This document shows, piece by piece, positions 29,254 to 49,854 of a stretch of 64,000 nt of DNA. A model generated the notes under the pieces. The model saw only the letters and a program-made list of their open reading frames with translations. It made no database searches and was not told where the DNA came from. How positions within the stretch are numbered: position 1 is the stretch's first letter; every line of letters begins with the position of its first letter. This DNA is from Streptomyces sp. NRRL S-337 (GTDB lineage Bacteria > Actinomycetota > Actinomycetes > Streptomycetales > Streptomycetaceae). The stretch is from contig NZ_JOIX01000006.1 in the NCBI RefSeq assembly GCF_000720175.1, positions 101,013 through 165,012 on the forward strand, written 5' to 3'. A program made the translations under genes and the position numbers.

Positions 29254-29904
29254 ATGTCCGAATTGGTATTTTTCTCCGGAACGATGGACTGTGGGAAGTC
29301 GACTCTGGCGCTACAGATTGCGCACAACCGGTCGGCCCGCGGGCTGCAGGGCGTGATCTTCACCCGGGAGGACCGTGCGGGGTCCGGCAAGCTGTCCTCG
29401 CGCCTGGGGTTGGTGACCGACGCGGTGGAGGCCGGTCCCGAGCTGGATCTGTACGCGTTCGTGGTGGAGCGCATGTCGAGGGGAGGCAAGGTGGACTACG
29501 TCATCGTGGACGAGGCGCAGTTCCTGTCGCCCGAGCAGATCGACCAGCTGGCCCGGATCGTGGACGATCTGGACCTCGATGTCTTCGCGTTCGGCATCAC
29601 TACGGACTTCCGGACCAAGTTGTTCCCCGGCTCGCAGCGGCTGATCGAACTGGCGGACCGGCTTGAGACGCTTCAGGTCGAGGCGATGTGCTGGTGCGGG
29701 GCACGGGCCACGCACAACGCTCGCACGGTGGGGGGCGAGATGGTCGTCGAGGGCGAACAGGTCGTGGTGGGGGATGTGCGAGGGGCTGCGGAGGCCGTCG
29801 GGTACGAGGTCCTGTGCCGCCGTCATCATCGCAAGCGGGTGACGAGCGCGACGGCACGAGCGGCAACGCTTTCGCCTGATGTGCTGCCGGTGACGTCGGG
29901 TTGA
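29254..29904 (+). CDS. tdk: Thymidine kinase
   Basis: Type II thymidine kinase of 216 residues, salvaging thymidine to dTMP. It has a P-loop in FFSGTMDCGKSTLALQIA, Walker B/DEAQF in VIVDEAQFL, the lasso region FGITTDFRTKLFPGS, and zinc-site cysteines in CWCGARAT and CRRHH. The ATG at 29254 is the family start; 18 extra codons upstream are open but not conserved. Third-position bias is weaker than in neighbouring core genes. A second divergent copy of its last about 70 codons lies at 49637-49854, marking the far side of the accessory segment. Confidence 0.93.
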   Translation: MSELVFFSGTMDCGKSTLALQIAHNRSARGLQGVIFTREDRAGSGKLSSRLGLVTDAVEAGPELDLYAFVVERMSRGGKVDYVIVDEAQFLSPEQIDQLARIVDDLDLDVFAFGITTDFRTKLFPGSQRLIELADRLETLQVEAMCWCGARATHNARTVGGEMVVEGEQVVVGDVRGAAEAVGYEVLCRRHHRKRVTSATARAATLSPDVLPVTSG

Positions 29905-30904
29905 CCATGCGTCAAGGCGGCACTGTCGAGCTCCGGGGAGGGAGTGGCTCATTGTGTTCCAGACGTGACGTGGCTGAACGACTGGGGTGACGAGCCGCAT
30001 TGGCAGTAGGTTCTTCGAGTCCAGGGCAGAAGCCACAACCAAGGGAAGGTCGCGTCACACCCCATGTGACCTGGGGAGATGCCCTGGTCGGGGCCGTTTT
30101 GCATCCCGGTGGGCTCCCCTCTCTGACCTGCGGGTTCCCGGGAGTGCCTCCGGGAATGTGCACTGGTTGTCCACAGGGATGGGTATGCGGGACAGGGCTG
30201 TCAGGGGTGCCACCACTGGGAGGATCACGATCGGTGGTTTGCGACTGGTGGGGCGCGGTGTCCGGCGAGCGCCCGGGTGGTGGCGACGCACGGTTGGCCA
30301 GCTGCTGTTGCGGACGGGCCACAGCCGGTGCGGGCGGTGGCGCGATCACCGGCAGGTGACCAACGGGATACTGCCGGGTGCGGACTGGGATGCCGTGGCG
30401 AGACGTGCCGGAACGATTCGGTTACTCGTTCCGGCATTCACCGTCTGTCTCCTCCGCCGTGGTTTCGTCGGCGGTGGGCGTCACTCTGGCTACAGCCGCG
30501 CCCAGCTCGCGCCGTGGCGGTGTGGGACAAGATTCCGCGGACCCACGCGGCCGGACAGGTGCCGATAGACGGACGACTGACCGGCTGTCTGGGAGCCACA
30601 GCGTGAGTTTGGTGCTGAGCCAGTGGTGCTCCCGGTGATCACGTGCCGCTGCTCGCGCGCCACCGTCCGCACCGGTTGTTGCTCTTGTGAGGCAGCGGCG
30701 CCCCATCGCCACTCATCGTCAGTTGAATCCCGTACCGGGCATGACCGTGCCGCTTCCCATTCGCCCGTTTCCTTCATCTTCCCAGGTCAGCAATGGTTTT
30801 GAGACAAACCGCAGAGCTAATTGTCCCGCTCTACTTGACGTCCTAAGCTCCTTCTGCTGCGCACTCGCAGCGCTCAACAGGCTGCACTGCCACGGGGGAA
30901 GCAG
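29905..30904. other. Kilobase of decayed sequence between tdk and the ESX-type locus
   Basis: No intact gene is supported. A transposase remnant occupies about 30299-30440. Several frames are open for 60-120 codons (for example 30000-30359, rich in Gly, Cys and Pro) but show no recognisable family. The final 250 bases should contain the promoter of the ESX-type operon; GGGGGAAGC before 30905 is its ribosome-binding site. Confidence 0.5.
30299..30440 (+). pseudogene. IS5-family transposase remnant
   Basis: One frame reads LLLRTGHSRCGRWRDHRQVTNGIL and continues after a two-base loss in the next frame as RVRTGMPWRDVPERFG, together reconstituting the N-terminal DUF4096-type motif of IS5-family transposases. 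The conserved continuation is lost after about 30440, and the catalytic domain is missing. Confidence 0.65.
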
Positions 30905-31363
30905 ATGAACTACGACCAGGATTGGGACCGCCGTCTCAATCCGTTCCGCTACAACGCGGACGGGACACTCACCGATGCCGCCAAGCGCCAGAACGTGACG
31001 ATGGAGCTCAACTCGGCTGGTGCCAACGGGGGTGGAGGCGCAGGGGCGGTAGGCCATCAATCGACGGTCCGCCCATCCGCTCTGACCAAGGCGGCCAGGG
31101 CGTTGGATGAGCTGCAGGGGGACACCGACAAGGTGGATCAGCACACGCTGGCGGAGACTGATGTGGCGTCGAACGCTCTTCGCGGCTGGCAATCGGCCGG
31201 CGGACTGTTCAGGTTGCACAGGCGGTGGGCCGAGGAGTCTGTCCACCTCAGTGCGATGTTGTTTGAGGCCAACGTAAAGCTGCGCGACACCAGTTCCTCG
31301 TACGAGCGGAACGAGCACGGTGAGAAGACCAGGATGGATTCACTTGACGGCGGGAGGGGCTGA
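30905..31363 (+). CDS. Small helical protein of the ESX-type locus
   Basis: First gene of the type VII-like locus, 152 residues. A polar, Gly-rich N-terminus (about 1-60) is followed by predicted helices with WQSAGGLFRLHRRWAEESVHLSAML at the turn, then the helical stretch NVKLRDTSSSYERNE. This resembles the helical-hairpin ESX proteins of the WXG100 superfamily, without an exact WxG. ATG follows GGGGGAAG. The next gene begins two bases after the stop, so the pair is an operon and may encode interacting partners. Family assignment is by resemblance only. Confidence 0.6.
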   Translation: MNYDQDWDRRLNPFRYNADGTLTDAAKRQNVTMELNSAGANGGGGAGAVGHQSTVRPSALTKAARALDELQGDTDKVDQHTLAETDVASNALRGWQSAGGLFRLHRRWAEESVHLSAMLFEANVKLRDTSSSYERNEHGEKTRMDSLDGGRG

Positions 31364-31365
31364 GC

Positions 31366-48782: not shown

Positions 48783-48944
48783 CCCTCCGAAGTCAGCACC
48801 GAACCAGCACCGGGAAATCTCGTGCTCGGTGGGAGACAAGGCCGTGTTCGATCTGACTGGCTGTGGGGCTTGATGACAGGTACCGAAGATCGTCACTCGC
48901 TGTAGCGCTTCCCGCGGCATGAGCGCCACCCCGACCGGCTGCCT

Positions 48945-49117
48945 GCCGACCTCCTCAGCGGGTCCGGGCCAAAGTAGAGCGCCACCGGCTCCACTACATT
49001 CCCGGCCGGATCGACCAATCGCTACGGCGACCAGGGGGCATCTGTCTCGGCGAGCCGTCCGATCTCGGGCAGCACAAGCGAGGCCAGATCCCGGTCATGC
49101 AGGCTTGGATCAAGCAT
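48945..49117 (-). pseudogene. N-terminal fragment of a tyrosine recombinase/integrase
   Basis: The minus strand from ATG 49117 reads DPSLHDRDLASLVLPEIGRL, then WSP-stop-RLVDPAGNVVEPVALYF. This matches the N-terminus of actinomycete site-specific integrases, where the stop (TAG) takes the place of an expected Tyr codon. Core-binding and catalytic domains are absent. Confidence 0.5.
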
Positions 49118-49188
49118 GTCGGGAAGCTAGCAGAAACCCCACCTGACCTGCGTAAATACGTCTACTGGTTCAGTCAACAGGGCGGGAG

Positions 49189-49854
49189 AGGCCGGCTGTC
49201 CTACGGCCGCGCAACGGAATCCTGGTGCTGCACACGCTGCACTGGCCCGAGGAGATCCGAGATCCCGGGGACCTGTCCAGTCCGGCTCCCACCACGGACC
49301 GGGAGCTGACTCTGGCCGAGCTGCTGATGTCCGAGATGGCGGGCGTGGACATCAGTGACCTGCACGACGACTACGCCGAGGCGCTGAACCTCCTGGTGGA
49401 CACCCTCGCAGCCGGCGGCCAGGCAGTACCGCCGGCTGAGCCGGAGCCGCCGGTGGACCTGATGGCGGCGCAGGCCATCAAGGCCCTGTGGGACGTCATG
49501 CTCCCTTTCTCGGGCTACGCCTTCAACAAGTCCCACACCGCCGGTTACAGCCCGGTCGCGTACTGGACCGCCTACCTCAAGGCGAACTACCCGGCCGAGT
49601 ACATGGCGGCGCTGCTGACGTCCGTCGGACGGCGCCCGGGCCACGCACAACGCCCGCACGGTGGCGGCGCGATGGTCGTCGAGGGCGCCCAGGTCGTGGT
49701 CGGCGATGTCCGCCGGACGACCGCGGAAGTGGGCTACGAGGTGCTCTGCCGCCGTCACCACCTGCGCCGGATGACCAGCGCCACGACCCGTGCGGGCGCG
49801 CTCTCCCCGGACGTCCTGCCGGTCGCCCCGACGCCGCAGGACGCGACGGGCTGA
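49189..49854 (+). pseudogene. Chimeric ORF joining fragments of Ku, DnaE and thymidine kinase
   Basis: One open frame (ATG 49225, 209 codons; Ku-like sequence from about 49189) strings together three housekeeping fragments. The first is Ku-like: LRPRNGILVLHTLHWPEEIR and ELTLAELLMSEMAGVDI to VDLMAA. The second is DNA polymerase III alpha: FSGYAFNKSHTAGYSPVAYW and LKANYPAEYMAALLTSVG. The third is the thymidine kinase C-terminus: MVVEGAQVVVGDV, VLCRRHH to SPDVLPV. The Tdk part is entered out of frame and corrected by a one-base loss near 49664. No known activity is expected; it is most likely recombination debris. Confidence 0.75.

Follow-up and report, generated by a model that had tools for sequence, protein, structure and literature searches.

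The thymidine kinase gene tdk of Streptomyces sp. NRRL S-337 lies in a stretch of 64,000 nucleotides (NCBI RefSeq assembly GCF_000720175.1, contig NZ_JOIX01000006.1, positions 101,013 to 165,012), referred to here as the window and numbered from its first letter, in which the end of the gene occurs a second time at the far side of a block of foreign DNA. We think it quite probable that this arrangement is an old, decayed insertion of an integrative element that targets tdk and carries a recoded replacement of the gene, a class of element that is defined here from relatives in other genomes. Three of its features are present in the window: a recoded tdk of the element type, a displaced piece of tdk at the far end and an empty site in a relative. 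The integrase and the attachment (att) sites are missing, and the window is therefore filed as a probable decayed relative of these elements and not as a proven member.

The two tdk copies and the empty site

The intact tdk (29254..29904, + strand) is complete, matches the NCBIfam thymidine kinase model over its cut-off, groups with element-borne genes in the tree described below and is the only full-length tdk in its genome (G000). A blastn search of the window with positions 28901-30400 finds the last ~66 codons a second time in direct orientation, confirming a duplication that a sequence-only reading of this DNA had claimed. The displaced piece (49630..49854, + strand) extends from codon ~146 to the end of the gene; over 49630-49823 it agrees with the intact gene at 150 of 195 positions (77%, plus/plus, E 1e-36), with a 1-nt gap relative to the left copy in the alignment. 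The same reading had both copies starting at a 17-mer. Although CGGGCCACGCACAACGC is common to both, homology of the right copy begins earlier, at 49630, a few bases 5' of it; as an att core the 17-mer is incompatible with the codon-17 junctions described below, and it marks where the truncated piece happens to start.

The proposal of an island at tdk is supported, with foreign DNA lying between the tdk pieces, whereas insertion into the 3' end of the gene is not. An empty site, suggested earlier as a check, exists in the Streptomyces relative G064, which has the order phosphodiesterase-tdk-VOC-rhodanese-sepH with one tdk and no island, and which is close to the host in the phosphodiesterase (93%), rhodanese (86%) and sepH (97%) genes. 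In the window, the phosphodiesterase-type gene (27941..29131, + strand), whose counterpart in G064 stands beside the single tdk, is the native left neighbour, separated from tdk by a spacer that is 122 nt long in the alignment (29132..29253; ~68 nt in G064). The native right border (52500..55643) holds VOC-like, rhodanese and sepH genes in the order that directly follows the single tdk in G064. Apart from the window's own genome, tdk regions of 13-20 kb were examined in 51 genomes, a sample that is not random since it was picked from the best matches, with five genomes chosen for several listed matches; in 35 of the 51 (chimeric G007 included) the phosphodiesterase gene, a single tdk, rhodanese and sepH lie within that stretch.

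A search with the right copy gives a match to the tdk 3' end in 197 of 199 genomes of the genus, and in several genomes tdk matches lie near one another among the matches listed. In G046 an intact tdk is accompanied by a row of six more copies or pieces; besides the intact gene there is one extra tdk in each of G198, G083 and G167 and two in G012, and alignment reveals that the better-kept extra copies share one starting point. Stacks of tdk occur in G046, G280, G232, G344 and G012. Signs of insertion at tdk were seen in 16 genomes (the window's, G007, G012, G025, G046, G083, G167, G175, G191, G198, G232, G262, G280, G325, G333 and G344), which is a lower bound because pattern and integrase searches covered 392 genomes and tdk loci were read in a minority of them. 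G007 and G025 are counted on sequence kinship together with a mixed (G007) or decayed (G025) start.

A tree of tdk genes built from codons 18-213, with codons 1-17 left out, puts the window tdk among the element genes, in a set of 6 rows with support 98. With G191 added, this set has 7 rows and a support of 99, and the window gene is sister (95) to that of G025. By eye, G025 still has what resembles a decayed split start. The tdk of G007 is also in the set; its body is sister to the element genes (support 100) and its start is native-like, and to judge by its sequence it probably arose by recombination between a split start and a replacement. Single tdk genes of the loci L040, L015, L042, L054 and L056 adjoin the set (11 rows, support 96) and, from this position, may be old captured copies of element genes. 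The sequence-only reading had suggested that the 3' end may have come with the element; this is too small, as the whole window tdk groups with element-borne genes. The switch in third-position GC content (GC3) looked for at about 29704 is not there: GC3 by codon blocks is 0.82, 0.94, 0.86 and 0.77, and over codons 18-214 it is 0.863, compared with a mean of 0.946 (standard deviation 0.028) among 60 further tdk genes, all of them first or single copies.

Recoding affects the 5' end of the window gene (codons 1-22, 29254..29319, + strand), as seen from GAATTGGTATTTTTCTC and from the ratio of 5' to body divergence. In 57 native-type tdk genes, a set from which G071 and G134 were left out, codons 1-22 show roughly half the divergence of the body (8.8% vs 16.8%) and the ratio is at most 0.79; it is 0.84 in the window and 0.76-1.18 in six element genes, so that none of the 57 natives reaches the window ratio and one reaches that of G025. 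Apart from codon 2, almost all of the changes are silent. Codon 17 (29302-29304, + strand), the counterpart of the integrase site in native tdk, lies within the recoded 5' end. The recoded start GAATTGGTATTTTTCTC occurs exactly in 3 of 392 genomes (the window's, G012 and G280), in all three at tdk; a match to the recoded-start pattern in G263 is not at tdk and was set aside.

Junctions at codon 17 and a serine integrase family

Six genomes (G012, G280, G262, G325, G175 and G191) contain a split host tdk. At the left junction the native start runs to AAG-Ser-AC in codon 17 (the Thr of GKST) and passes into an arm, for example TTGCTGGGGAATCCGCCAT, followed by a spacer and then a complete second tdk; at the far end a mirrored arm precedes host codons 17 to the end. 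The break site is in the Walker A motif, near the tdk 5' end, and in an alignment of 6 left and 17 right junctions it falls at the same nucleotide; insertion into the 3' end, as proposed earlier, is not supported. For the right side there were 19 rows, two of which were dropped, one as a duplicate and one as an intact gene truncated where the locus ends. Because the pattern that listed the right junctions contains AC, the core there is given partly by construction; the same break is seen in alignments made without an AC-containing pattern. An element carrying only codons 17 to the end of tdk was dropped as a candidate, as the split loci show a complete second gene. Some right arms have drifted (two of the four in G046, for instance, and those of G012), and the better-kept arms form an inverted repeat around a 2-bp AC, a sequence arrangement as expected of a serine-integrase attP.

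The arm pattern TYGCTKRGGNATYCGCCAT was searched for in the 392 genomes of the genus with at most one mismatch. Its sources were the arms of G012, G280, G262, G325, G333 and G175, so that matches in those six arise by construction. The pattern occurs at 43 places in 38 genomes and its reverse in 8 genomes; 13 of the 43 places, in 11 genomes, are at tdk junctions, and outside the source genomes these are in G232 (two places, one exact), G191, G344, G167 and G046. The tdk insertions of G232, G191 and G344 were first revealed in this way. Among the 30 arm places with loci, 9 hold tdk and 21 are without it at E 0.01, while 4 of the 13 places without loci are at tdk by their coordinates and the other 9 were outside this check.

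In G012 a large serine integrase (Pfam Resolvase, Recombinase and Zn_ribbon_recom) is encoded by a gene that starts ~40 bp from the start of a displaced tdk. Homologs of at least 70% identity are found in 5 of 392 genomes (G012, G280, G333, G175 and G325, the last with the integrase in two overlapping pieces), and all five have a displaced tdk whose aligned part begins at amino acids 12-15; that of G325 is on a different contig. The integrase abuts the right junction in G012, G280 and G333 and is ~21 kb away in G175. Among the best 7997 candidates scored from a large protein set there are 12 clusters at least 75% identical, followed by a drop to 45%; the best-ranked phage rows are ~32% identical and the plasmid rows ~30%. 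In G333 (L150 16941-19901, L151 1-223) the integrase stands alone, in ~2 kb, between an intact tdk with a native-type start and a displaced tdk. In G012 (L008, L045-L052), ~75 kb of core genes (atp, thr and rho, by eye) separate the intact tdk from the integrase and displaced copies; the chromosome is therefore rearranged there, and a single element of 147 kb is ruled out by the core genes inside.

A mechanism can be proposed in which the integrase would join attP, whose two arms flank AC in inverted orientation, with tdk at codon 17, so that the start of the host gene stays on the left and codons 17 to the end come to lie at the far end. The complete tdk just inside the left junction has its own start and silent codon changes over the site; these changed codons would protect the replacement from the integrase, and the replacement would keep the cell tdk-positive. 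Recombination between split start and replacement, suggested mainly by the G007 chimera, would then eliminate the left junction and make tdk cuttable again, allowing more elements to insert and stacks to form.

Origin of the arrangement in the window

Applied to the window, this scheme would make the gene at 29254-29904 the replacement tdk and the ESX genes behind it the cargo; the integrase and att sites would have disappeared and gene scraps would have closed the right edge again, so that codons ~146 to the end of a displaced tdk remain. The best parallel is G191, which is akin to the window in sepH (93%), rhodanese (83%) and VOC (80%). Its left junction is intact and an element tdk is present; ~51 kb of other DNA follow, and a displaced tdk, cut at codon ~101, stands directly next to VOC. 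No integrase of the tdk-targeting family was found in this genome. Compared with G191, the window has the look of a more advanced stage of one and the same process.

Several observations weigh against this assignment. Alignment and a fuzzy arm search reveal neither a split native tdk start nor an attP arm in the window, and the arm pattern is absent throughout its genome. The right junction, a P arm joined to codon 17, is not present in the window either, where a dnaE scrap precedes the right piece. No integrase of the tdk-targeting family is found in the genome at E 1e-30, or in the window by tblastn at E 1. The element tdk genes of G012 and G280 fall outside the element set, near the natives of their own group, so that the element type is not one clade, and G071 and G134, each with a single tdk, reach divergence ratios of 0.92 and 0.93, perhaps as old insertions or chimeras, or perhaps because recoding also comes about for other reasons. 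For the ESX genes, the nearest relative found is in G090 (78% over 7.4 kb), far from its tdk. The right copy is about as close to the element tdk of G025 (80.9%) as to the native tdk of G064 (81.3%), and 76.8% identical to the intact tdk of the window; the highest value among all aligned copies is 86%, with that of G015. Its place in the tree has no strong support and is outside the clade that the host's kin form with their native and displaced tdk genes, and the copy is followed not by VOC but by a block of SDR, AfsA-type and TetR-type genes. From its identities, its place in the tree and this block, the right copy may either be what is left of the host gene or stem from an earlier element.

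The second option amounts to a variant of the preferred reading that we regard as possible, though tentatively: the right copy would be the tdk of an earlier element, the SDR (+ strand), AfsA-type (- strand) and TetR-type (+ strand) genes (49890..52425), a gamma-butyrolactone-like set absent from this place in G064, would be its cargo, and the host tdk beside VOC would have been lost. Such stacks are known from the five genomes named above, the block does lie between the right copy and VOC, and the right copy is outside the host-kin clade; AfsA homologs occur in 18 of 199 genomes (the window's included), and none is at tdk where both positions were compared. This variant has to contend with the right copy being marginally closest, among the few compared, to the native tdk of G064, and with no second displaced piece having been found near 52430-52500.

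The right edge itself is a row of scraps: a tyrosine recombinase (~48972..49180, + strand; ~70% identical to a plasmid stretch annotated partly as tyrosine-type recombinase), Ku (49182..49470, + strand; 88% to a Streptomyces plasmid Ku, with a match also at another place in the same genome), an internal part of dnaE (49472..49631, + strand, from sequence matches) and the tdk piece, which adjoin one another with a few bases between them or overlap. The Ku and dnaE scraps are additional to the features named earlier. Such a row, the missing integrase and att arms and the unclear kinship of the right copy would suit two unrelated events, a replacement of tdk by horizontal transfer and a random scrap added by illegitimate end joining. 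We judge this unlikely: where an insertion starts at an element-type tdk, chance would seldom place just a scrap of tdk at the other end and in direct orientation, and G191, a close kin, has the same layout with the left junction kept. Very improbable is an island placed by a tyrosine integrase in the 3' end of tdk, with the duplicated segment as att and the recombinase scrap as its integrase. A direct repeat with a shared 17-mer, recombinase sequence near the right edge and the empty site in G064 agree with it, but a pair of copies only 77% identical and offset by a gap does not behave as an att repeat, the element type spans the whole gene with GC3 unbroken at 29704, and junctions in other genomes are at codon 17. 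The integrase remnant reported earlier at the right edge does exist, as this ~200-bp scrap, which is one of several gene scraps there.

Cargo, known systems and meaning

The lower-GC ESX-type locus described earlier between the tdk copies is borne out. ESX or type VII secretion system (T7SS) genes, DUF6571/WXG100-like ones included, occupy 30905..42095 (+ strand) according to domain and NCBIfam models, with mycosin (36882-38099, + strand) over its NCBIfam cut-off and EccC (38145-42095, + strand) over those of both EccCa and EccCb; GC is ~0.59-0.69 over 30-43 kb and 0.69-0.77 over 43-48 kb. EccB and EccD were unmatched among the window proteins scanned, a part of the open reading frames (ORFs), and WXG100 matched below cut-off only. 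The G175 element (~93.5 kb) has EccB, EccD and WXG100 genes, a TraG/TraC-like ATPase and a Replic_Relax protein, and its EccC and mycosin are 53% and 43% identical to those of the window. A special link between the window ESX genes and tdk elements was considered and found only weak, because mycosin homologs occur in 144 of 150 genomes, the nearest locus found, in G090, is off tdk and the EccC of G175 is so distant. By eye, the same HAD-like gene follows the ESX genes in the G175 tdk element (L159 12741-13403) and in the G090 non-tdk island (L212/L213). ESX modules may move between kinds of element.

Two insertion sequences had been placed between the tdk copies. The IS630-type transposase is there (42239..43216, + strand; Pfam DDE_3 and HTH_32), whereas IS5 survives only as an IS5-family-like scrap of ~120 bp (~30300..30421), one of whose plasmid matches is annotated as IS5 family. 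An ORF with a DUF4180 domain (42946-43761) overlaps the end of the IS630-type gene. Domain matches further describe a high-GC block (43721..48370, - strand) of one unnamed gene, a large protein that looks secreted and has reprolysin-like, fn3-like and ricin-B lectin domains (44449-46533, - strand) and, adjoining it, a protein with sigma-70 region 2 (46664-48370, - strand). At 48645-48770 the sequence resembles, by eye, the broken-off N-terminus of an MHS/MFS-type transporter; Pfam gives nothing for 48552-48782.

Cargo between displaced copies or inside elements of other genomes includes RHS toxins, which have a T7SS-signal domain in G083, G280 and G344 and a WXG100-like start in G046. G280 also has a T7SS-signal protein whose further domain is of the glutamine-deamidase type, and NB-ARC/TPR (NLR-like) proteins are found in G012 and G280.

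We lean, with some reserve, towards regarding these elements as a natural cut-and-rescue system, in which the integrase would enter the nucleotide-binding codons of tdk, a full recoded tdk would travel with it in uncuttable form and loss of the left junction would restore the site, so that the array grows. The phages phiC31, phiBT1 and phiJoe of Streptomyces likewise use a large serine recombinase, with attP recombining with an attB inside a chromosomal gene; the tdk integrase differs in being at most ~32% identical to the best-ranked phage integrases, and we know of no rescue gene in phages of this type. Elements of the SXT type, which insert at the 5' end of prfC, also provide a protein gene with a new 5' end, but they supply only a promoter and first codons, whereas the tdk element brings a whole gene and leaves the resident one in two pieces. 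Recoded-rescue gene drives pair a cutter with an uncuttable recoded copy of the target gene; they are engineered and nuclease-based, in contrast to the tdk element, which is natural and recombinase-based and in which protection is presumed.

Gene-restoring islands in tRNA and tmRNA genes follow a related principle, that of Islander (PMC4383910): the target is split, the island restores it, and the regenerated target and the displaced fragment mark the ends. Those islands use tyrosine integrases and a short tDNA fragment; the tdk element, by contrast, has a serine integrase, its target is a protein gene broken close to the 5' end, and it brings the entire gene in recoded form. Accretion of integrative and conjugative elements (AICE/ICE) in Streptomyces (PMC9513070) resembles the tdk stacks in that elements pile up at one site and decay while their cargo differs; the site there is tRNA-Arg with direct repeats, and the words 'thymidine' and 'tdk' occur 0 times in its text. 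A literature search on tdk and serine integrases with gene rescue, and more widely, brought up no paper that, from its listing or the opening of its abstract, could be seen to treat tdk as an integration site in Streptomyces.

The tdk element may be a natural example of recoded rescue. Its serine integrase family is distant from the known phage integrases; the exact att pair predicted for this family lies at a gene found in nearly all sampled Streptomyces and would be useful for vectors. In the stacks of other Streptomyces, T7SS/RHS toxin and NLR-like genes separate the displaced tdk copies, and since these copies mark successive arrivals the locus would be a readable record of how such cassettes spread. 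If the cut-and-rescue model is true, the locus would become an array in which tdk copies mark off toxin, immunity and defence cassettes according to when they arrived, with new elements added in front.

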